From a virus, in the IMG/VR virus record IMGVR_UViG_3300017971_000026, positions 20,079 to 84,078 of that record: DNA of 64,000 nucleotides, one strand, 5' to 3'. Under the pieces are notes generated by a model. That model searched no databases, was not told the DNA's origin, and was given only the letters and a program-made list of their open reading frames with translations. Positions 4,600 to 60,407 of the stretch are shown here, piece after piece (the stretch's first letter is position 1; every line of letters starts with the position of its first letter). The position numbers were made by a program, and so were the translations under genes.

Positions 4600-4923
4600 C
4601 TACTTCGGCTTCTTGACCCGGCCGCCCTTGGACCAGAGCACCTTGTCCGCCCAGTATGCCGGGCTCGACTTGCCGCGGGCTATGTTCTTCGCGTGGCGCG
4701 CCTTGAAGCCCTTCCGCGCGCCGGGGCTGTAGTTGTGTGGGGCGCCCTGCTCGCCGAAGCGGATCGTCTTCGGCTTGCCGTCGACCATGGTCACGACGAC
4801 GCCCTTCTTCTTCGGGTGGCTTGGTGTCATCTTAGGCTTGTCGAGCCCAGCCACGCCGGCCTTTTTCACCGCGCGCTGGACGACCTCGCGCTTCTTCGTC
4901 GCGGCTGACTTCGGCTTCGCCAT
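4600..4923 (-). CDS. Small basic phage protein of the KARHAKNI type
   Basis: 107 residues, very Lys-rich. The series GVVVTMVDGKPKTIRFGEQG, then GFKARHAKNIARGK, then AYWADKVLW matches a small conserved phage protein found beside structural genes in many myo- and siphoviruses. Its role is not established. Last gene of a four-gene type B operon (5990 to 4600); its ATG overlaps the upstream stop by one base (TGATG). Confidence 0.6.
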   Translation of the reverse strand: MAKPKSAATKKREVVQRAVKKAGVAGLDKPKMTPSHPKKKGVVVTMVDGKPKTIRFGEQGAPHNYSPGARKGFKARHAKNIARGKSSPAYWADKVLWSKGGRVKKPK

Positions 4924-6228: not shown

Positions 6229-6615
6229 GTGACCATCGAACCGAAACCCATGGACCCCGACCGGCTCGCGCGGCTGATCGCCGAGGTCGAGGACGAGATC
6301 TACGTCGAGCCTGCGCTCGTCTTCGAGTTGCTCGCTGACCGGGCCTGGCACCGCGCGCGCGTCGAGGTGACCGACGAGGACATCGCCAACTCCGATGTCG
6401 ACGAAGCGGACCCGCGGTTCTACGCGTGGATGACCCGCCAACATCAGCTGCCGGATCTCGCCGATGGGCGATGGTCGGGCGACCCTGGTCATCCAAGCTC
6501 GATCATCCTCGACTACCTCGACGCGGAGACAGCCAACGCGGCAGCTCGCGGTGTTGGAAAGCCGCCCCTCGACGTTCTTGACGAGATCGCCGCGACGGAG
6601 GTTCCCAATGGTTGA
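6229..6615 (+). CDS. Hypothetical acidic protein
   Basis: 128 residues, many Asp/Glu; no domain recognised. The GTG start is placed by the type A element rather than by a ribosome site. Overlaps the ASCH-like gene by 8 nt, so the two are likely co-translated. Confidence 0.6.
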   Translation: MTIEPKPMDPDRLARLIAEVEDEIYVEPALVFELLADRAWHRARVEVTDEDIANSDVDEADPRFYAWMTRQHQLPDLADGRWSGDPGHPSSIILDYLDAETANAAARGVGKPPLDVLDEIAATEVPNG

Positions 6616-11895: not shown

Positions 11896-13012
11896 GTGGT
11901 CAGCGCCAGTCGATCGCTGGGTCAGGAGGGCCAAGGGCGTCGACGGCAAGATGCTCGGCGCACCGGCGAGGCTCCTCCTCGACGACCTCTGGTCGAAGGC
12001 CGACGCCCCGAGCAAGCGCGACCCCGAGGCCCATGTCTTCGTCTACGGCGAGTGGATCACCGTCGGTGAGATCGCCCGTGACTTCGAGTGCGCCGATCGC
12101 ACGATCCGCACGCAGTTCGCGCAGATATTCAATGCTGGACTCGCCAAGAAGGGTCGCGGGGTCAACAACCACGGCCGCGAGGTCGACGGGATCTGGCTCG
12201 CCAACGTGCCCTCGGCCGGATGGTTTGATCCGCCGACCCGGATCAAATCGTCCGATCAAACCATCCACGATCGCGGATCAAACCATCCGGCTGCCCGGAT
12301 CAAATCGTCCGGGGACGCGGATCAAACCATCCACGAAAACGGATCATTTAATCCGCACGATCGGCAAAAAACGTCCGCCAACCCGGATCAAATGATCCGC
12401 GCCTATAAGGAAGACCCAATTAACCCAATTGGACCCGATCAGACCCGATCGCGCGAGGCCGGGCAGGCCGGCCTGTTCGGTGACGAGCCAGTGGTGGAGG
12501 AGACTGCACCTGGTGAGTCCGTCACCCCTGCGAAGATCCGGGCCTGGTGGGACGAGGTCTTCGTGCCGCTGCGCGCCGAGACACTCGACCGATACCGGAC
12601 GGGATCTGCGCAGCCGATCGCATGCTCGAAATCCAGGATGGCGGCGCTGCGCAAGCGCATCGCCGAGACCTGCCCTGGGGTGCCGTGGACAGATCCGACC
12701 CCCGGTGTCGACGGCGTCCGCGAGCAGCTGACCCACGTCGTGCGCAACGCAGCGGCTAGGGTCCACGAGCATCGTGGAGGAGAGACCTCGTGGGGGTGGA
12801 ACTCGCTCGACGCGATCCAGCCGAAGCACTGGACGGCCGAGAAGAACTTCACCCGGTACTACGAGGCACCACCTGCCGACGACAGCGACGGGAAGCCTCC
12901 GCCCGATGTCGAGGTAATCGGCGGCGTGGTCCAATACCCTCGAGCCGACGCGACGAACTACGGCACCGGCACCGCCTACGGCGACCCACGGAGGCGACGC
13001 CGCGATGACTGA
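11888..13012 (+). CDS. Lambda O-like replication initiator with internal origin
   Basis: 374 residues. Residues about 25-100 form a winged-helix DNA-binding domain (LLLDDLWSKAD, then ITVGEIARDFECADRTIRTQ). The middle (about 115-180) is a low-complexity linker encoded by the iteron array at 12218-12398. The C-terminal half (about 200-340) would be the helicase-loading part. Order and architecture match lambdoid O proteins: N-terminal origin binding, origin inside the gene, DnaB-type helicase next. It probably melts the origin and recruits the helicase encoded at 13005. Overlaps both neighbours. Confidence 0.7.
   Translation: MGEWSAPVDRWVRRAKGVDGKMLGAPARLLLDDLWSKADAPSKRDPEAHVFVYGEWITVGEIARDFECADRTIRTQFAQIFNAGLAKKGRGVNNHGREVDGIWLANVPSAGWFDPPTRIKSSDQTIHDRGSNHPAARIKSSGDADQTIHENGSFNPHDRQKTSANPDQMIRAYKEDPINPIGPDQTRSREAGQAGLFGDEPVVEETAPGESVTPAKIRAWWDEVFVPLRAETLDRYRTGSAQPIACSKSRMAALRKRIAETCPGVPWTDPTPGVDGVREQLTHVVRNAAARVHEHRGGETSWGWNSLDAIQPKHWTAEKNFTRYYEAPPADDSDGKPPPDVEVIGGVVQYPRADATNYGTGTAYGDPRRRRRDD
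12218..12398 (+). repeat. Iteron array (probable replication origin) inside the initiator gene
   Basis: Seven 14-bp units start every 22 bp at 12253, 12275, 12297, 12319, 12341, 12363 and 12385. The consensus is GGATCAAACCATCC, with GGATCAAATCGTCC as a common variant. The 12363 copy is degenerate. One extra direct copy sits at 12240 and one inverted copy (GGATGGTTTGATCC) at 12218. Because 22 is not a multiple of three, the repeats fall in different reading frames and the protein is not repeated, so selection is on the DNA. 22 bp is close to two helical turns. Confidence 0.85.
12399..12450 (+). other. AT-rich stretch next to the iterons (candidate unwinding element)
   Basis: Immediately after the last iteron the sequence contains CCTATAAGG and AATTAACCCAATT, markedly AT-richer than the surrounding genome. 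An AT-rich unwinding region beside iterons is the lambda origin layout. Still inside the coding sequence. Confidence 0.55.
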
Positions 13013-14516
13013 CCACGGCCTGCCCCACAACCCGGCGGCCGAGCTCGCCTGCGTCGCGGCGATCTACGCCCGAGGAGTCCCGGGCCTCGACCAGGTCGTC
13101 GCCGAGGTCCGAGACGCCGACGCGTTTCTCAACCCGAGGAACCAGGCGCTCTTCGCAGCGATGCTCGCCTGCGCTGACGCCGGCGAGCCGATCGCCGATG
13201 ACCAGATCGTGAGCGAGCTTCGTCGCCTCGGTGACTTCGACCGTCTCGGCGGGGCGTCGGTCTTCGAGTACCTGCGATCCGGGATCACCACGAGGACCAC
13301 CGACGCTGCGAAGGCCGTGCGCCGGGACTACATGCGCCGGCAGCTGTTCACCCAGCTGCGCGAGGTGAGCGAACGGCCGCTGCACGACGACGACGTCGCC
13401 GCCTCGATCAACGCAGCTCGACAGGTCCTCGACCGGCTCGAGCAGGACCAGGCCCGCAAGCGGGTTTCGATCCGCGACGCGGTGGCCGAGACGCGTGAGG
13501 AGCTCTACGCCGACCCCAGCGAGTTGACTGGCCACGTCCCGCTCGGCTTCGCGTCGATCGACGAGTACGCCGGAGCCCCCGAGCCCGGCGACCTGGTGAT
13601 ACTCGGCGCCGAGTCAGGCACCGGCAAGACGGCCGCGCTGCTCAGCTGGATCCGCAACGGCGTCCTGGACTGGCACGAGAACCTCGGCCGCTACCGACCG
13701 AGGGCCATGCCGATCCCGGCGCTCATGTTCAGCGGCGAGATGCTTCTGCCCAAGCTGGTCCGCCGCTGGCTCTCGGACATGGCTGGGATCGACGGACGGG
13801 ATCTTCGTGGCCGGCTCGACCCCGAGTGGCTGGAGGCGAAGCGCGGTCGGGTCACGCACCGGGAGATCGTCGACCGCGAGCTCGACATCCTCGCCGCCTG
13901 CGCGATCGAACTCGCGGACCCGCGGGCGTCGACGTCGATCGACGGGATCGCGGCAGAGGCTCGAGCTTGGCGCACCGCGATGGTCTCGAAGTACGGGGCC
14001 AAGTCGCCGGGGCTGATCGGCGTCGACTTCCTGCAGCTCGTCGACCCGCCGTCGGGCCTCGCTCGGAACATCCGCAGCGACGAGCGCGAGGAGGCGAAGG
14101 CGAAGGCACTCAAGCGCCTCGCCATGGGCACAGGAACCGTCGTCACCGCGCTCTCGCAGCTGACCGTTCCGAAGGGCGCCGAGGGTGAGCGTCCTCGGGT
14201 CTCGTGGATCCGCGGGTCGAAGGGGATCCGCAACGCGGCGGACCGGATCTACCTGCTCCATCGGCCGTGGATCCACGACCCCAACGTCAGCGACCGCGAG
14301 GCCGAGTACCAGCACCTGCGGGGACTCGCCAATGAGGGCCGGCTCGGCGATCAGGGCAAGCGCTTTCGCGGGCTCGAGCACGCTCGGCACTACGCCGAGG
14401 TCGGGATCGCCAAGGGTCGAGACGGCGCGGCGTTCCGCTGGCTGCCGCTGGACTTCGCGCCCGAGTACACGCGCTTCCTCGACTGGTCGGGAAGCGAACA
14501 CCAGGCCAACGGGTAG
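13005..14516 (+). CDS. DnaB-type replicative helicase
   Basis: 503 residues. The N-terminal DnaB_N helical domain (residues about 8-105) is followed by a linker and a RecA-like core. Walker A is GAESGTGKT at 201-209 and Walker B LIGVDFLQLV about 140 residues later. A conserved SQLT and RGSKGIRNAADRIYLL follow. As the ring helicase it would unwind the fork from the origin in the preceding gene. ATG 13005 overlaps the initiator by 8 nt. Confidence 0.88.
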   Translation: MTDHGLPHNPAAELACVAAIYARGVPGLDQVVAEVRDADAFLNPRNQALFAAMLACADAGEPIADDQIVSELRRLGDFDRLGGASVFEYLRSGITTRTTDAAKAVRRDYMRRQLFTQLREVSERPLHDDDVAASINAARQVLDRLEQDQARKRVSIRDAVAETREELYADPSELTGHVPLGFASIDEYAGAPEPGDLVILGAESGTGKTAALLSWIRNGVLDWHENLGRYRPRAMPIPALMFSGEMLLPKLVRRWLSDMAGIDGRDLRGRLDPEWLEAKRGRVTHREIVDRELDILAACAIELADPRASTSIDGIAAEARAWRTAMVSKYGAKSPGLIGVDFLQLVDPPSGLARNIRSDEREEAKAKALKRLAMGTGTVVTALSQLTVPKGAEGERPRVSWIRGSKGIRNAADRIYLLHRPWIHDPNVSDREAEYQHLRGLANEGRLGDQGKRFRGLEHARHYAEVGIAKGRDGAAFRWLPLDFAPEYTRFLDWSGSEHQANG

Positions 14517-16187: not shown

Positions 16188-16448
16188 ATGCCGATCAGGA
16201 TCACAGTGCCGGAGGTTGCAACCGTGCGCGCGGGCTGGCGCCGCTGCGCAAGGCGAAGGGCAAAGGACGTCGCCGAGCTGGCCCGGCAGCTGGGGGTGAC
16301 TCGCCAGTACCTCAGCCGGATCCTCAACGGCCAGACGCAGACCATGCCGGCGTGGATCTATATGGCGCTCTGCGCAAAACTCGAGATCGATCCACTCAAA
16401 CACCTGACCACCAAGGAGCCACCATGGCTGCAACGATCACCCAACTGA
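16188..16448 (+). CDS. XRE-family helix-turn-helix regulator
   Basis: 86 residues. The core AKDVAELARQLGVTRQYLSR followed by ILNGQTQTMPAWIYMALCAK is a canonical Cro/C1-type helix-turn-helix. TACGGG lies six bases before the ATG, a weak type B match. It overlaps the following gene by 25 nt and sits between the small-gene run and the recombination genes, so it probably regulates one of them. Confidence 0.75.
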   Translation: MPIRITVPEVATVRAGWRRCARRRAKDVAELARQLGVTRQYLSRILNGQTQTMPAWIYMALCAKLEIDPLKHLTTKEPPWLQRSPN

Positions 16449-17180: not shown

Positions 17181-17315
17181 ATGGACATCGACCTCGACGG
17201 GCTCTTTCTCGCACTACTGGCCATGGTGACCCTGATCGTGATGGTCGTGGTCGCAGGGACCGTCGCACATGGCCTCGGCTATCTGCCCGCTGATGGGTCA
17301 CACCGTGGTGACTGA
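17181..17315 (+). CDS. Small membrane protein
   Basis: 44 residues, one membrane segment (LFLALLAMVTLIVMVVVAG). Leaderless-type start. Overlaps the RecE-like gene. Confidence 0.55.
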   Translation: MDIDLDGLFLALLAMVTLIVMVVVAGTVAHGLGYLPADGSHRGD

Positions 17316-18237
17316 CCTCGAACCCGGCGAGGCCGGGTTCGTCGACTGGGGCGAGGCGCGCTACCACGCCGACCGCGACCACGTCTCGAACTCGTGGCTC
17401 TCGGTCCTGATCAAGGAGGGCCCGGCGATCTACCGGGCGAAGCGCGACGGACTGATCGACAGCGACGAGTCCGACTCGATGCGCTTCGGCACGCTCGTGC
17501 ACCTAGCCCTGATCGAACCCGACGAGTGGCGCCGGCGTCTGTTCGAACCCGAGCCCGTCCGACCGGCCAACGCCAACGGCCGTGGCAAGAAGGGCACGCC
17601 TGAGAAAGACTCCTACCTCCGATGGAAGCGCGACGTGGACGAGTGGGCGACCGAGCTCGAGCAGGCTCCGGGCGCGATCGTGCTGACCGAGCGCGAGCGC
17701 GAGCGCGTCGAGGCTTGCGCCGAGTCGGTGCGTCAGCACGCGGCAGACGAGCCGGGCGAGCTTGGCGCGAGCGACCTCCTCGCGGCCACGACCGCGACCG
17801 AGCAGACGATCCTGCGCCGCGACGAGGAGACCGGGATCCTGTTGCGCCACCGGCTCGACCTGCTCGCGGACATGGGTGTCCGCGTGATCGCGGATCTGAA
17901 GACGACGCAGGACCCGAGCCCCGACGCCTTCGCCCGGTCTGTGGCGCGCTTCGGCTACCACCGGCAGGCGGCCATGTACGTCGACGCGCTGCAGGCGGTC
18001 GAGCCCGACGCCGAGATCCACTTCGTGATCATCGCGGTGCGGTCGCGCTTCCCCTTCGAGGTGGCGACGCACGTGATCGAAGCAGACGAACTCAGGCAAG
18101 GCCGTCGCGAGTACCGGCGAGCCCTGCAAGACCTCGCGCGCAGGCGCGAGCAGAACGACTGGCGCGCGGCCTGGCAGCGCGGCCTCAACCGGCTCACGCT
18201 CCCGCGCTGGGCCTTCGACAAGGACGACGACCAATGA
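17308..18237 (+). CDS. RecE-like / PD-(D/E)XK exonuclease
   Basis: 309 residues. The arrangement fits the RecE C-terminal / PDDEXK exonuclease family: YHADRDHVSNSWLSVLI near the N-terminus, FGTLVHLALIEPDEW (motif with His), then GILLRHRLDLLADMGVRVIADLKTT supplying the catalytic D and DLK. These enzymes resect double-strand ends for annealing recombination. GTG 17308 (8-nt overlap) places the YHAD motif at the family's usual distance from the start; ATG 17269 is an alternative. The RecT-like gene follows with an ATGA overlap. Confidence 0.78.
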   Translation: MTDLEPGEAGFVDWGEARYHADRDHVSNSWLSVLIKEGPAIYRAKRDGLIDSDESDSMRFGTLVHLALIEPDEWRRRLFEPEPVRPANANGRGKKGTPEKDSYLRWKRDVDEWATELEQAPGAIVLTERERERVEACAESVRQHAADEPGELGASDLLAATTATEQTILRRDEETGILLRHRLDLLADMGVRVIADLKTTQDPSPDAFARSVARFGYHRQAAMYVDALQAVEPDAEIHFVIIAVRSRFPFEVATHVIEADELRQGRREYRRALQDLARRREQNDWRAAWQRGLNRLTLPRWAFDKDDDQ

Positions 18238-19342: not shown

Positions 19343-20442
19343 CCTTCGGGCCCGGCGTGGATGTGACCCAGTCCGGGGCGCTCGTTGTGCGCTTCTTCTA
19401 CCGCGGCGACGACAGCAGGCTCATGCGGGTCGTCGTGGCCGTCGACAACGACGTGGCTGTCGAGGAGCACATGGGCCTGGACGCTCTTGGCGGGATCCGA
19501 TGGCGGCCGGTCGATCTCGACGATGACGAGGACATGCCGAGCGCCTGGGTCGGCATGGTGGCGGCTGCGATCGCGTGGGCCTACCGGGAGCGGATCCCCT
19601 CGCGGCCGAGCGTCGAGCAGATCATGGACGCCGGCCGATCCGAGGGATTCCGCGAGTGCGCGCACCGCCTCGCAGCCGTACTCGACGACGAGCCTCGATG
19701 GCACATCGTGTTCGGCGAGGTCGTGAAGTTGCGGATCGGGCAACTCCATCGCCAGGGGATGAGCGACGAGGACATCGCCGCCGCCGTGGGCTGGCCTCTG
19801 AGCAACGTCGAAACCGTGCTCGCGGGGACGCGGTGCGAGACCGTGTCGAGCGTAGACGTCGAGACCCTTCGCGAACTCGCCGAGGACTGGGCTGGTCAAG
19901 GGCAGGCGTCGTGGGAGTCGGATTACGAGCGCGGCGAGACCGTGGCCTGGAGGCTCGCGGCTGAACGGATCACAGAGGTCCTCGACGCCAAGCCCAACAT
20001 GGCCGATCCGACCGCTGACATGGAGGCCAGCGCCGACGAGATGGGCGAGCCTCCGCAGGTGCCAGGCCGCCCAGGGTGGCCGGGAGACGTTGGGGGAGTA
20101 GTCGGGCCGAAGCCTGGCACCGATGACGTCGTGGTCGAGATTGCGACCGAAGACGACGGCTTCGTGTTCGTCACCGTGATGACTCCCGAGGACGACGAGT
20201 GGGGCAACGGGTCCGAGGACCCGGACGCCCGAGTGGCTATCGTCGCGCTCGATGACCTGCGCCATGTTCTCGGGGGACTCCGTACCCAAGCAACGGGGCT
20301 ACGCGGTCAGGTCGAGGCCGTTCGCAGGGCCATCGAGACCCGACTGATCAACGCCAACGAACACAAGAACACCGACCGCGCTGGGGCCTTCATCGAGATC
20401 GACGCGCTGCTCCGAACTGCGCTGGACGGTGACCCCACATGA
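19339..20442 (+). CDS. Hypothetical multi-part protein
   Basis: 367 residues. A helix-turn-helix-like segment (LHRQGMSDEDIAAAVGWPL) lies near residue 140. An acidic linker of about 60 residues follows, then a C-terminal helical region. No overall family recognised. GTG in a GTGA overlap; ATGA overlap with the resolvase gene. Confidence 0.5.
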   Translation: MTFGPGVDVTQSGALVVRFFYRGDDSRLMRVVVAVDNDVAVEEHMGLDALGGIRWRPVDLDDDEDMPSAWVGMVAAAIAWAYRERIPSRPSVEQIMDAGRSEGFRECAHRLAAVLDDEPRWHIVFGEVVKLRIGQLHRQGMSDEDIAAAVGWPLSNVETVLAGTRCETVSSVDVETLRELAEDWAGQGQASWESDYERGETVAWRLAAERITEVLDAKPNMADPTADMEASADEMGEPPQVPGRPGWPGDVGGVVGPKPGTDDVVVEIATEDDGFVFVTVMTPEDDEWGNGSEDPDARVAIVALDDLRHVLGGLRTQATGLRGQVEAVRRAIETRLINANEHKNTDRAGAFIEIDALLRTALDGDPT

Positions 20443-20975
20443 GCACGATCGCGATCGACCCCGGCAAGACGACGGGCATCGCCCTCTACCTCGGCGGACC
20501 CTCGAGCCCGATCGTCGCGTCGTGGGTCGACCCGACCTCGGTGGAGATCCTCGCGTTCCTACGCTGGGCGAAAGGCGCCGGGTTCACGACCGTCGTGATC
20601 GAAGATCAGCACCTACCGCGACCGAGGGTCGTGCGTGGCTCGATCAAGTGGCGGCTGAACTGGCCCAACCTCCAGACCCTGATCCGAGGCGCCGCGCGCT
20701 GGATGACCTGCGCAGAGATCGTCGGCATGCGCGTCGAGTTCATCAAGCCGGCCGAGTGGCAGGGGCCGATGCTCGGCAAGTCGAGCGACCTCTCGACGAA
20801 GCAGCTGTGCTCGAAGGTGGTCGCCGAGACCTGGGTGACCGTCCGGCGCTGGCACCCCGCGAAGGGCGAGGCCGTCGGGGACGCGCAACTCGTGAAGGTC
20901 GACCGGCTCAACGAGCACATCCGCGACGCGATCATGATGGGGCGCTGGTGGATGCTCTACGGGGGTGCACGATGA
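20439..20975 (+). CDS. RuvC-like Holliday junction resolvase
   Basis: 178 residues. Begins TIAIDPGKTTGIALY, the RNase H-fold first strand with the catalytic Asp and the GxTTG loop. VVIEDQHLP supplies the acidic second strand, and a late HIRDAIMMGRWW the terminal acidic residue. Phage RuvC-like enzymes resolve junctions before packaging. Follows recombination genes in the same operon. Confidence 0.72.
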   Translation: MSTIAIDPGKTTGIALYLGGPSSPIVASWVDPTSVEILAFLRWAKGAGFTTVVIEDQHLPRPRVVRGSIKWRLNWPNLQTLIRGAARWMTCAEIVGMRVEFIKPAEWQGPMLGKSSDLSTKQLCSKVVAETWVTVRRWHPAKGEAVGDAQLVKVDRLNEHIRDAIMMGRWWMLYGGAR

Positions 20976-38136: not shown

Positions 38137-40311
38137 TCAGGCGGTCAGCGAGGCGATCCGCAGCTTCACGTGGCCGACGATCGAGGCGATCTTTCCGACG
38201 CGATGCACGCGCTTGGTCTTGCCGATCCCGCGCTCGTCGACGGTGTCCGCGTCGCGAACCAGCGAGACCTTGATCGAGTCCTTGCCGACGCCGCGGACCT
38301 GGCCGCCCTCGATCGTGCTGGCGACCTTGCAGGTCACGCGACCGCGCTTGCGGGTGTAGATGACCTCCCAGTAGCCGCGAGCGGGCTTGCTCGGGGTGAA
38401 GCCCAGGCCGCGCAGCTCGGCGTCGAGGCGGCGCGCCAGGGCCACGCGAGCGGCGGCGGCGTGCGGGTCGTAGGTGTCCGGGGCGTCGGCGGCGACGGGC
38501 GGGAGCGGGGCGGGCTGATCGTTCTCGGGCTTGGCGTCGCGGTCTAGATACCCTGGGTCGTGCTTGCGCCCGGGGTGCGCGCAGTCGACATGCGCGTGAT
38601 GGCCGGGCCCCTTGAGGCTCTGGACGACACTCATGACCGGCAGGCCATCGACGGGCGCCCCACACTTGTGGCAAGGCCCAGCGATCCCCGCGACGATCGG
38701 GTCGTCGTCCTCGTCGTCATCGCCACCCACGTCAATCACGCCGTCGAGCATCACCAGCTCCTCCTGCGCGCGCGTCACCGCGACGTCGAGCAGGTTCCGC
38801 TCCTGCTCGACCATCCACGGGCGCGAGTTCGGCCACGCTTGACCGAGCCGCTCGGGCTTGGCGATGAACACCCGCGGAGCTTCGAGCCCCTTCGCCCGGT
38901 GCACCGAGCTGAGCACGACCTTGGGGTCCTGGTCTTCGAACAGCTTGGCGATCGCGGCCTTCAGCTCGTTGGCCGACTTCGCGCCCGACGAGATCCAGAT
39001 CACCCGGATGCACTCGGCCTGGTCGGAGATCGCTTCGAGCCGCGCGGCCAGGGCGTCCTCGCTGCGCTTGCCGTAGCGCTTGCGGGCCTGGTCCTTCTCG
39101 CGGTCCTCCCAGTCGTCGAGACCGAGGCCGAAGTCCGCGAAGCTGCGACCCTTGGCCGCGACGGTGATCACCTTGGCCAGCCCCTTGCCGAGGTCGCGAC
39201 CGCGGACCGCCGCGCTCACGCCGTTTCCGATCAGCTTGAACGCGAGGCTGAGGAGCGGCGCGTTCAGGCGACAGAGGACCATGTCGCCGCGCCGGGCCTC
39301 GTCGAGGAACGCGTCGGTGGTCGAACTGCGGACGACGCCCTCTGGAGCGCCGGGGCGAGCCTCGATCTGCGGGACGATCTCGCGGGCGAGGTCGAGGACG
39401 CTGGTCGGGCAGCGGTAGCAGACGCTGAGGGGTAGGACCTTCGCGTCGAACTCGGTGATGATCGCCTGGAACGACGCGCTGTCTGCTCCCGCGAAGCCGT
39501 AGATCGCTTGATTCCTGTCGCCGATCGCAAGCAGTCGGCCGTTCTTCGTCAGTGACCGGCCGATCAGGACCCGGTGCGCCTTCGAGATGTCCTGGCACTC
39601 ATCGACGAAGATCGACGAGTAGGTCGCGGGCTGCAGTCCGAGTTGGCAGGGGAGCCAGACCATGTCGGTGAAGTCGACGATCCTCGGGTTGTCGGCGCCC
39701 CACTGCATGGCGAGGCGGGCGACGTCGACAATCAGCTGCTCGACGGCGCCGGGGAAGTCGATGTTGTGATGGTCCGCGAGGGCGAGGAGATCGGCAGCGA
39801 AGCCAGGGCCCGCCTCAGGCGCGACTAGGCTCAGCCGCGCGAGGTCGATCAACTTGAGGGTCGAGCTGCGCGGGAAGCCGTCGTCGATGACCGACTTGAT
39901 CTCGGCGGGCGTGAGCGCGTCGCCGCGGAGGGTCTGCGCGGCGTCGACCTCGGCGATGCAGCCGTCGACGAAGTCGCGGTACTTGCCGGCGTCGACCTTG
40001 ACCCGGCCGAAGGCCCGGCGGACCGCGCCGAAGCCATGCGAGTGTACCGTCGAGGCGACCATCCCGGTCCCCTTCAGCTCGGTGTTCAGCATCGTGGCGA
40101 TCGACCTGTTGAAGGCCAGGAACAAGCCCGATTCGACCAGCTTCGCGCAGCTGACGATGGTCGTTGTCTTGCCAGATCCTGCGCAGGCCTCGACCACGCC
40201 GTTGCCCTCGCCGTCCGCGACAAAGTCGAAGATCGCGGCTTGATAGGCGCTCGGGACGTAGGTCAGCTCGAGGCGGTCGCGCCAGGCTTCGGGGGTCATG
40301 CTCGTCGTCAT
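38137..40311 (-). CDS. UvrD/Rep-like superfamily 1 helicase
   Basis: 724 residues. Motif I ACAGSGKTTT (about 43), motif II IFVDECQDIS, motif III AIGDRNQAIYGFAGAD, motif V SSVHRAKGLEA and motif VI NLLDVAVTRAQEEL are all present. The C-terminal 200 residues hold a CHKCG...HVDC zinc site and a possible OB-like tail. Likely a 3'-5' helicase for replication or repair. ATG 40311 (MTTSMTPEAW) is preferred over 40341 because a type C element ends at 40312. Confidence 0.85.
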   Translation of the reverse strand: MTTSMTPEAWRDRLELTYVPSAYQAAIFDFVADGEGNGVVEACAGSGKTTTIVSCAKLVESGLFLAFNRSIATMLNTELKGTGMVASTVHSHGFGAVRRAFGRVKVDAGKYRDFVDGCIAEVDAAQTLRGDALTPAEIKSVIDDGFPRSSTLKLIDLARLSLVAPEAGPGFAADLLALADHHNIDFPGAVEQLIVDVARLAMQWGADNPRIVDFTDMVWLPCQLGLQPATYSSIFVDECQDISKAHRVLIGRSLTKNGRLLAIGDRNQAIYGFAGADSASFQAIITEFDAKVLPLSVCYRCPTSVLDLAREIVPQIEARPGAPEGVVRSSTTDAFLDEARRGDMVLCRLNAPLLSLAFKLIGNGVSAAVRGRDLGKGLAKVITVAAKGRSFADFGLGLDDWEDREKDQARKRYGKRSEDALAARLEAISDQAECIRVIWISSGAKSANELKAAIAKLFEDQDPKVVLSSVHRAKGLEAPRVFIAKPERLGQAWPNSRPWMVEQERNLLDVAVTRAQEELVMLDGVIDVGGDDDEDDDPIVAGIAGPCHKCGAPVDGLPVMSVVQSLKGPGHHAHVDCAHPGRKHDPGYLDRDAKPENDQPAPLPPVAADAPDTYDPHAAAARVALARRLDAELRGLGFTPSKPARGYWEVIYTRKRGRVTCKVASTIEGGQVRGVGKDSIKVSLVRDADTVDERGIGKTKRVHRVGKIASIVGHVKLRIASLTA

Positions 40312-40346
40312 CGCGCGGTCCAACCGGGCCCAACGCGCCATATTCC
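40312..40346 (-). promoter_or_regulatory. Type C promoter-like element
   Basis: GGAATA, N14, CGGTTGG, eight bases, ATG 40311. Further upstream lies AAAAAAGATCGAGAAAGT, shared with the site at 48722. Confidence 0.6.
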
Positions 40347-54111: not shown

Positions 54112-54434
54112 GCACTGCATTCCCCGTCGCCTCCGTCCGCCGCATGTACGCGACTCTGTCCGTGCGAGGTCCCGCGCGCACTCGCGCCGCCTTCTGCACG
54201 GTCGTCGACATGATCGATATGGGCACGCTGACGCCCGAGGTCGTGGCCGACGTCATCCTCGGAAAGACCACGATCGCTCAGGCGGTGCGCGACGTCGCCG
54301 AGGTCATGGCCGACGGTGCCGCAGACTGCGACGACGCGGAGATCGCCGCCGACATGGAGCGCGTCGCGGCCGACTGTCGGGCGGCATCGGACGCGCTCAA
54401 CCCGATGGGCGCGGTCAGCCCTCGCGCGGCCTGA
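54108..54434 (+). CDS. Hypothetical helical protein
   Basis: 108 residues. A PEVVADVILGKTTIAQAVRD segment resembles a small helix-turn-helix but is not conclusive. End overlaps the convergent methyltransferase gene by 20 nt. Confidence 0.5.
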   Translation: MSTAFPVASVRRMYATLSVRGPARTRAAFCTVVDMIDMGTLTPEVVADVILGKTTIAQAVRDVAEVMADGAADCDDAEIAADMERVAADCRAASDALNPMGAVSPRAA

Positions 54435-55707
54435 CCAGCTGCGCCTTGCGGCCGGTCTCGCGCTCCCACCTGGCCACGGTGACGTCGCACATCGCCCGCT
54501 CCATCTCCATCGCTCGAACCCGTCGCCCGGTCCGCTCACCCGCGATGATCACAGAGCCCGATCCGTTGAAGAGGTCGAGCACGATCTCGCCCTCGTCGCT
54601 GCTGTTCTCGATCAGCTCCGCGAGCATGGCGACGGGCTTGGCCGCGTTGTGCAGGCGCTCGTCTCCGGTGGGGCGGTTGTGCCCGCGCACGACGTTGGGC
54701 TTGAACACCTGGCGATGCCCAGCGATCCGGCTGCTGGTCATCTTGTGCTTCGGCGGCTCCCGCACGAAGAACGCGATCATCTCGTAGCAATGGGCGTACA
54801 TGCTCCCAAGGCCTCCGCCCCCCTTGTCCCAGATCAGCGCGTTCTTCGGGCTCATCTTCGCGCCCTTCAGACCATCCCAGATCGTCGCCCAGCTGCGCCA
54901 GTCGCAGCACACGTAGACGTGGGCGAACTCGCGGACGCTGCCGACGATCACGAACCCGAGCCGCGCGAAGAAGGGCCGGATCATCTTGTCGTCGGCGATG
55001 TCCGCTCCGATCCCGGTCGAGCTTCCGTAGATCGCGAACGGAGGATCCATGAGCGCCATGTCTGCGATCTCGCCGTCGAGGAGAAGCGCCCGAGCGCCCT
55101 CGTCGAAGCTGTCGCCACAGACGAGGCGATGGTCGCCGAGGATCCACAGGTCGCCCGTCTGCGTGACAGGTTCCTTCGGCGGCTCGGGTAGCGGCGGCTC
55201 CTCGCCCCCCCCTTCGCCCCGCTCATGCTCGCCGACGGTCGAGACCTCCTCGAGCGGCCACTCGACGTCGAAGCCCTCAAAGTCCGCCGCCTCAAAGCCG
55301 ACGTCGCCCCAGTCGAAGTCCGGCTGCTCGCCGATCGTCTCCGCGAGCTGCTCGGGGTGCCACTCCGCGAGCTCGGCGCTGCGGTTGTCGACGATCGCCA
55401 ACTCAGCGGCCTCCTCGGGCGTCATCGGTCGAAGCTCGCCCGTCTCGGGGTCGCGGACCTTGTCGACGAAGACGGCGACGATCTGCTCGGCGCCCATGTC
55501 GATCGCTCGAGTCACGGTGCCGTTGCCGGCGATGATCACCCCGGTCGGCTCGTAGACGACGATCGGCTTGACCTGCTGGAACTTGCCGAGGCTGTGCTCG
55601 ATCACCGCGAGGTTGCGGTCGTTGTGGCGGCGTGCGTTGTGCGGGTCGAGGGTCAGGCTCGCGATGTCGACGAGCTTCGGTCGGAGGGCTGGGGCGTCAG
55701 CGTCCAC
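54415..55707 (-). CDS. ParB-like domain fused to a DNA methyltransferase
   Basis: 430 residues. Residues about 10-115 are a ParB/Srx-type domain (LTLDPHNARRHNDRNLAVIE, then VIIAGNGTVTRA). A Pro/Glu-rich linker follows, then an amino-methyltransferase domain with GDSFD, MALMDPPFAIYG (DPPF), and VLDLFNGSGSVIIAGE. Such fusions are common in phages and probably modify specific DNA sites. GTG 55707 is chosen because TATCCT lies six bases upstream; the frame is open 6 codons further. Confidence 0.78.
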   Translation of the reverse strand: MDADAPALRPKLVDIASLTLDPHNARRHNDRNLAVIEHSLGKFQQVKPIVVYEPTGVIIAGNGTVTRAIDMGAEQIVAVFVDKVRDPETGELRPMTPEEAAELAIVDNRSAELAEWHPEQLAETIGEQPDFDWGDVGFEAADFEGFDVEWPLEEVSTVGEHERGEGGGEEPPLPEPPKEPVTQTGDLWILGDHRLVCGDSFDEGARALLLDGEIADMALMDPPFAIYGSSTGIGADIADDKMIRPFFARLGFVIVGSVREFAHVYVCCDWRSWATIWDGLKGAKMSPKNALIWDKGGGGLGSMYAHCYEMIAFFVREPPKHKMTSSRIAGHRQVFKPNVVRGHNRPTGDERLHNAAKPVAMLAELIENSSDEGEIVLDLFNGSGSVIIAGERTGRRVRAMEMERAMCDVTVARWERETGRKAQLVRPREG

Positions 55708-59886: not shown

Positions 59887-59921
59887 CGGTCCACCCAACC
59901 GCACCCCGCCGATCTTATTTC
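59887..59921 (-). promoter_or_regulatory. Type C promoter-like element
   Basis: GAAATA, N14, CGGTTGG, eight bases, ATG 59886; an AT-rich tract with TTTTTTCGAGAT lies upstream. Confidence 0.55.
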
Positions 59922-59957
59922 GAGAAATCTCGAAAAAATCGCAACCAACCGTAATCG

Positions 59958-60407
59958 CTAGGCTTTTCGCCCTCGACGCATTGGATCCGGCCGGTTGAGC
60001 AGCGAAGCGCGAATCGCGGGGTCATCGCTCGAGAGTCCCTGCCGGAGCCGCTCGTAGGCCTTGGTGAACTCGCTGGCCACGCCGTAGGTCTGCCGCATCT
60101 GCTCGGCGACCTCGGCCTGCAGCGCCGCCTTTCCCGCGAGGAGCTGCTCGCGCGTGATCACCGGCTGGACCTCGGCGCGCTCCTCGACCTGGCCGTTGGC
60201 TTCGCCGATCTCCTCCACTCCGAGGTCCACGACGACGTGCCGGATCGTGTAGCCGCCCTCGGCCCACCCTTCGCCGTCCTCGCAGCCTCCATGGTGCCGG
60301 TGGCACTCGACGCAGACGGCGGCGTAGTCGTCCCACGGCGGCTCCCAGAGCACGAAGAGCTTCGTCTCGAAGCAGTGCTCGCAGAAGTAGTAGCCGACGC
60401 GCCTCAC
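59958..60407 (-). CDS. Zinc-binding protein with helical tail
   Basis: 149 residues. CEHC near residue 9 and CVECHRHHGGC near 32-42 form a likely zinc site; the C-terminal half is helix. GTG follows TAGCGT and six bases (type B). Located 17 nt after the baseplate J gene, so possibly a tail or late protein. Confidence 0.55.
   Translation of the reverse strand: MRRVGYYFCEHCFETKLFVLWEPPWDDYAAVCVECHRHHGGCEDGEGWAEGGYTIRHVVVDLGVEEIGEANGQVEERAEVQPVITREQLLAGKAALQAEVAEQMRQTYGVASEFTKAYERLRQGLSSDDPAIRASLLNRPDPMRRGRKA

Follow-up and report, generated by a model that had tools for sequence, protein, structure and literature searches.

A candidate theta-type replication origin with 22-bp iterons inside a putative initiator gene of an uncultivated phage

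Results

Organization of the Locus

The DNA analysed here (the window, 64 kb) is part of an IMG/VR virus record of 84,078 bp with 68% G+C. As summarized in Table 1, the locus consists of an open reading frame that carries a cluster of short repeats, a stretch of low duplex stability that follows them, and the gene of a DnaB-type replicative helicase, which overlaps the end of the repeat-bearing gene by 8 bases. The N- and C-terminal domains of DnaB (PF00772 and PF03796) were both detected above cut-off in the helicase product, bearing out the preliminary description, which had placed a helicase of this type after the initiator gene. A DnaB-type helicase gene directly downstream of the repeat-bearing gene is also what the design known from lambda O and P22 gp18 calls for.

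Table 1: Features of the candidate origin and its surroundings (window coordinates).
Feature	Position	Strand	Remarks
Block without detectable DNA homology to the related phage L003	11455..12521	.	blastn; upstream small gene, N-terminal domain, iterons and unwinding stretch
Initiator ORF, 374 aa	11888..13012	+	ORF call; array at the middle of the gene
Inverted iteron GGATCAAACCATCC	12218..12231	-	22 bp ahead of the extra copy
Extra iteron GGATCAAATCGTCC	12240..12253	+	13 bp ahead of the series; one-base overlap with its first copy
Seven-site series, exact 22-bp steps	12253..12398	+	Starts at 12253, 12275, 12297, 12319, 12341, 12363, 12385
Probable unwinding stretch	12399..12449	+	Adjoins the array; short A/C-rich direct repeats ACCCAATT, AACCCAATT, GGACCCGATC, AGACCCGATC
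DnaB-type replicative helicase	13005..14516	+	PF03796 E 3.7e-24; PF00772 E 1.2e-7; phrog_19 E 2.2e-49

Other genes of the window include an Exonuclease VIII-like gene (17269-18237), a Holliday junction resolvase-like gene (20439-20975), and a second helicase gene (38137-40341), which suggests that the phage carries its own recombination set. On the minus strand, positions 54418-55707 encode a DNA methyltransferase (PF01555) whose N-terminal part includes a ParB-like stretch. Searches for integrase, resolvase, and ParA were negative in the records of both this phage and its relative L003, described below.

The Putative Initiator Protein

The product of the repeat-bearing gene can be divided into a predicted N-terminal DNA-binding region (residues ~1-112), a linker encoded by the candidate origin (~113-210), and a C-terminal domain (~212-374). 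None of the family libraries used in the profile searches names this protein an initiator at significance. The winged helix that had been attributed to it is plausible for the N-terminal domain, but no profile establishes it, helix-turn-helix families matching residues 57-91 weakly and at E 0.1-0.3 only. The AlphaFold model of this domain is poor (mean pLDDT 41.9), with the element order helix-strand-helix-helix-strand-strand; mean pLDDT for the C-terminal domain was 37, so that element order alone was drawn from the models, and a Foldseek search of the PDB with the fold model returned nothing informative.

Membership of the Lambda O family (PHROG 391, Pfam Phage_rep_O) could not be shown with the sequence searches that we applied. 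Pfam and NCBIfam profiles, Phage_rep_O among them, gave no O-family match for the initiator, BLASTP against P22 gp18 detected no homology (E 1.5), and hhalign against three O proteins returned a probability of 0.3%. A match to phrog_391 (E 0.074; E 7.7e-4 for one genome) was discounted, since the same search produced a better-scoring unrelated match in the record as well as matches in most of the control genomes. No relative of the initiator was found in the annotated phage collection.

The Iteron Array

Nine 14-bp dyad sites with the consensus GGATCAAAYCATCC occupy positions 12218-12398, the array beginning ~330 bp inside the gene. The seven repeats of exact 22-bp period, the extra copy, and the inverted copy of the preliminary description were all found as placed, with one qualification: the copy at 12363 (GGCAAAAAACGTCC) agrees with GGATCAAACCATCC at 9 of 14 positions and counts as a weak one, so that the in-register series comprises six good sites and a poor one. 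As the dyad of the sites, GGAT-N6-ATCC, is imperfect, "inverted" concerns the AAA/TTT centre only.

When up to two mismatches to GGATCAAAYCATCC were allowed, every match in the 64 kb fell inside the array, and in the remaining 20 kb of the record a pattern search for GGATCAAANNNTCC with up to one mismatch found none. Among periodicities of 16-32 bp, none in the window is as strong as period 22 at 12256 (8.0 sd; runner-up, 5.3). The repeats had been described as out of phase with codons, and this was confirmed: from copy to copy the frame shifts in the order 0, 1, 2, so that all three are used, and synonymous-codon shuffling with the protein held fixed (n = 500) did not reproduce the array, giving at most 27 high-match positions (periods 10-59) against the 39 observed. 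DNA folding of the array region gave a z of -5.1, a value that only reflects the inverted repeats.

GATC is denser at 12218-12450 than anywhere else in the window (13 in 235 bp; mean 3.1); overall, GATC and TCGA are about 5-fold overrepresented. In L003, GATC density likewise peaks at the array of that phage, at 6318-6470 (12 in 153 bp; mean 2.1). Both peaks arise because the two iteron units contain GATC.

The AT-rich flank reported beside the repeats was also recovered. The 60-bp segment 12385-12444 has the second lowest duplex stability of the 64-kb window (z 4.2), and an easily melted AT-rich stretch directly 3' of the repeats is a further element of the lambda O/P22 gp18 design. The only less stable 60-bp stretch lies at 59907-59974, away from the candidate origin. 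GC skew, proposed earlier as a check at 12.2-12.5 kb, gave no signal; over the whole record it shows no turn at the array (~12 kb), is uninformative, and lends the origin no independent support.

A Related Phage with a Different Array

Relatives were sought by scanning viral contigs and genome contigs, and these scans yielded a single true relative, the IMG/VR record IMGVR_UViG_3300035185_000025 (L003). A match in Thermocrispum was dropped, as it looks like that bacterium's own DnaB. L003 carries the same gene pair, with 80% identity in the helicase and 75% in the C-terminal domain of the initiator. In contrast, the N-terminal halves can hardly be aligned: a two-sequence comparison gave a 36-residue match at 33% identity (E 0.001). 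PF01555 matches also occur in the L003 record.

At the same position within its initiator gene, L003 has an array of its own, made of seven copies of a different palindrome, GGATCCTCGAGGATCC, or close variants, and found in that genome at this locus only. The period is again 22 bp, although the array is less regular than that of the window (spacings of 22, 19, 16, 22, 22, and 22), and a stretch of low stability follows it as well. The repeats had been called conserved as DNA, which holds within the array and not between the phages, the unit of L003 being another one.

In blastn, the two phages share DNA homology up to 11454 and again from 12522, where the C-terminal domain begins, so the N-terminal domain, the iterons, and the unwinding stretch between these points form a single block that differs. 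Such a joint change of N-terminal domain and repeat unit is to be expected of binding partners, and it favours the reading of the array as an origin. This pair provides the strongest grounds for linking the repeats to the first half of the protein. The co-variation argument is one comparison between the two genomes that carry the family, and what it shows is joint divergence or replacement rather than binding.

Discussion

We consider it probable, at roughly 85%, that theta-type replication of the phage originates at the array, inside the phage's own initiator gene. In favour of this reading, the array greatly exceeds chance expectation, occurs nowhere else in the record, and is out of phase with the codons; the segment next to it is weak; and the gene order and the overlap with a DnaB-type helicase gene match P22 genes 18-12. 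On the model of lambda and P22, the initiator would bind the nine dyad sites through its N-terminal domain, probably a dimeric winged helix, and a repeat of 22 bp, close to two helical turns, would align these dimers on one face of the DNA. The resulting nucleoprotein complex of dimers and DNA would melt the weak stretch just downstream, where replication would start, and the conserved C-terminal domain would bring in the phage's own DnaB-type helicase, the product of the next, overlapping gene.

The dyad sites are operator-like, and a gene for a Cro/C1-type HTH protein lies not far off, at 16188-16445. The initiator or a repressor could thus use the sites to regulate transcription of the replication operon, with replication starting elsewhere. 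This is quite unlikely in our view, since the array lies ~330 bp inside the gene, where a promoter search not tailored to a particular host found no promoter-like site (a weak argument), and nine phased sites with an adjacent weak stretch exceed the needs of an operator. Centromeres typically have phased repeats too, and the array could serve a plasmid-like prophage as its partition site, with a ParB-like protein binding it; a ParB-like stretch is fused to the methyltransferase. We regard this as highly improbable: neither phage record has a PF13614 ParA-type ATPase, the array sits inside a gene that adjoins a helicase gene, and the weak stretch would be left unexplained. That the repeats encode a repeated peptide of a disordered linker and have no role as DNA is scarcely credible even though they do fall in the linker between two domains, because a period of 22 is not a multiple of 3, the rotation through all three frames already contradicts a peptide repeat, and the synonymous-codon shuffles fail to reproduce the array.

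The reading as an origin is the best one, strongly supported by the array of L003, and to this extent the lambda-style origin of the preliminary description stands; the closest known layout, however, is that of P22 genes 18-12 rather than lambda O-P. The annotated origin of P22 lies in gene 18, with repeats at 20/24/23 bp and then an A-rich stretch. In both phages, the annotated or candidate origin lies inside an initiator gene, several repeats precede a weak stretch that itself contains short direct repeats, and the overlapping next gene encodes the phage's own DnaB-type helicase (BLASTP E 5e-10 between the two helicases). The systems differ in the repeat unit, in the number of repeats (nine here, four in P22), and in their spacing, which is strictly 22 bp here. 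Lambda likewise has iterons, dyads around an A-run, and an AT-rich stretch in the middle of its initiator gene; unlike the phage studied here, it encodes the loader P for the host DnaB, its four iterons are spaced at 20/24/23 bp, and the initiators are not alignable. Lambda, P22, and L003 all have, immediately downstream of their iterons, a stretch rich in A or C that contains short repeats.

The number of iterons and their unit, which had been singled out as different from lambda, do differ from it; they are not unusual, as the same has been published for Stx phages and phage L (PMC7466680, PMC8022706). Stx phages have six iterons, four of them strongly bound, and dimeric O proteins (PMC7466680), while gene 18 of phage L contains six repeats of another sequence (PMC8022706). 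That each initiator has its own iterons, located inside its own gene, is thus published for lambdoid phages (PMC8022706, PMC7466680). Those are enterobacterial lambdoid proteins, and the comparison with the present system is made at the level of published description.

Phased repeats near two helical turns and an AT-rich unwinding stretch are shared with iteron plasmids of the RK2, P1, and R6K type. Plasmid iterons usually lie beside the rep gene, not inside it as the present array does, and work with DnaA boxes; allowing up to one mismatch, no such box was found at distances of up to 2 kb from the array.

Five phage loci with DnaB matches were scanned for comparison, including those of Akkermansia phage Chantilly, Streptococcus phage Javan330, and PMG1. 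Short repeats lie inside a gene adjoining the DnaB-type helicase gene in Chantilly (2475-2577), possibly a further origin of the same design, and in Javan330 (4656-4778), possibly another origin. In PMG1, repeats inside the adjacent gene were weakly seen.

A more speculative extension, which we think unlikely as a whole, is that in these two phages the N-terminal domain, iterons, and unwinding stretch form a block of origin specificity that has been exchanged in nature, next to a C-terminal domain and a helicase that they have in common, and that the initiator family has no kinship with lambda O. The GATC core of both units and the peaks of GATC density would leave room for control of the origin by adenine methylation.

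Judged from the searches above, what is new is the protein family: the candidate origin is lambda/P22-like, yet the protein cannot be classified as a member of the O family. The principle itself is textbook. The analysis gives the coordinates of the probable origin of an uncultivated phage. It would also widen the reach of the design in which the initiator gene contains the origin, adding a phage lineage for whose initiator no relatives are detectable in the annotated phage collection. With a common helicase and C-terminal domain, and a likely DNA-binding half and iterons that differ, the two phages offer a clean natural pair for testing how initiator and origin change together.
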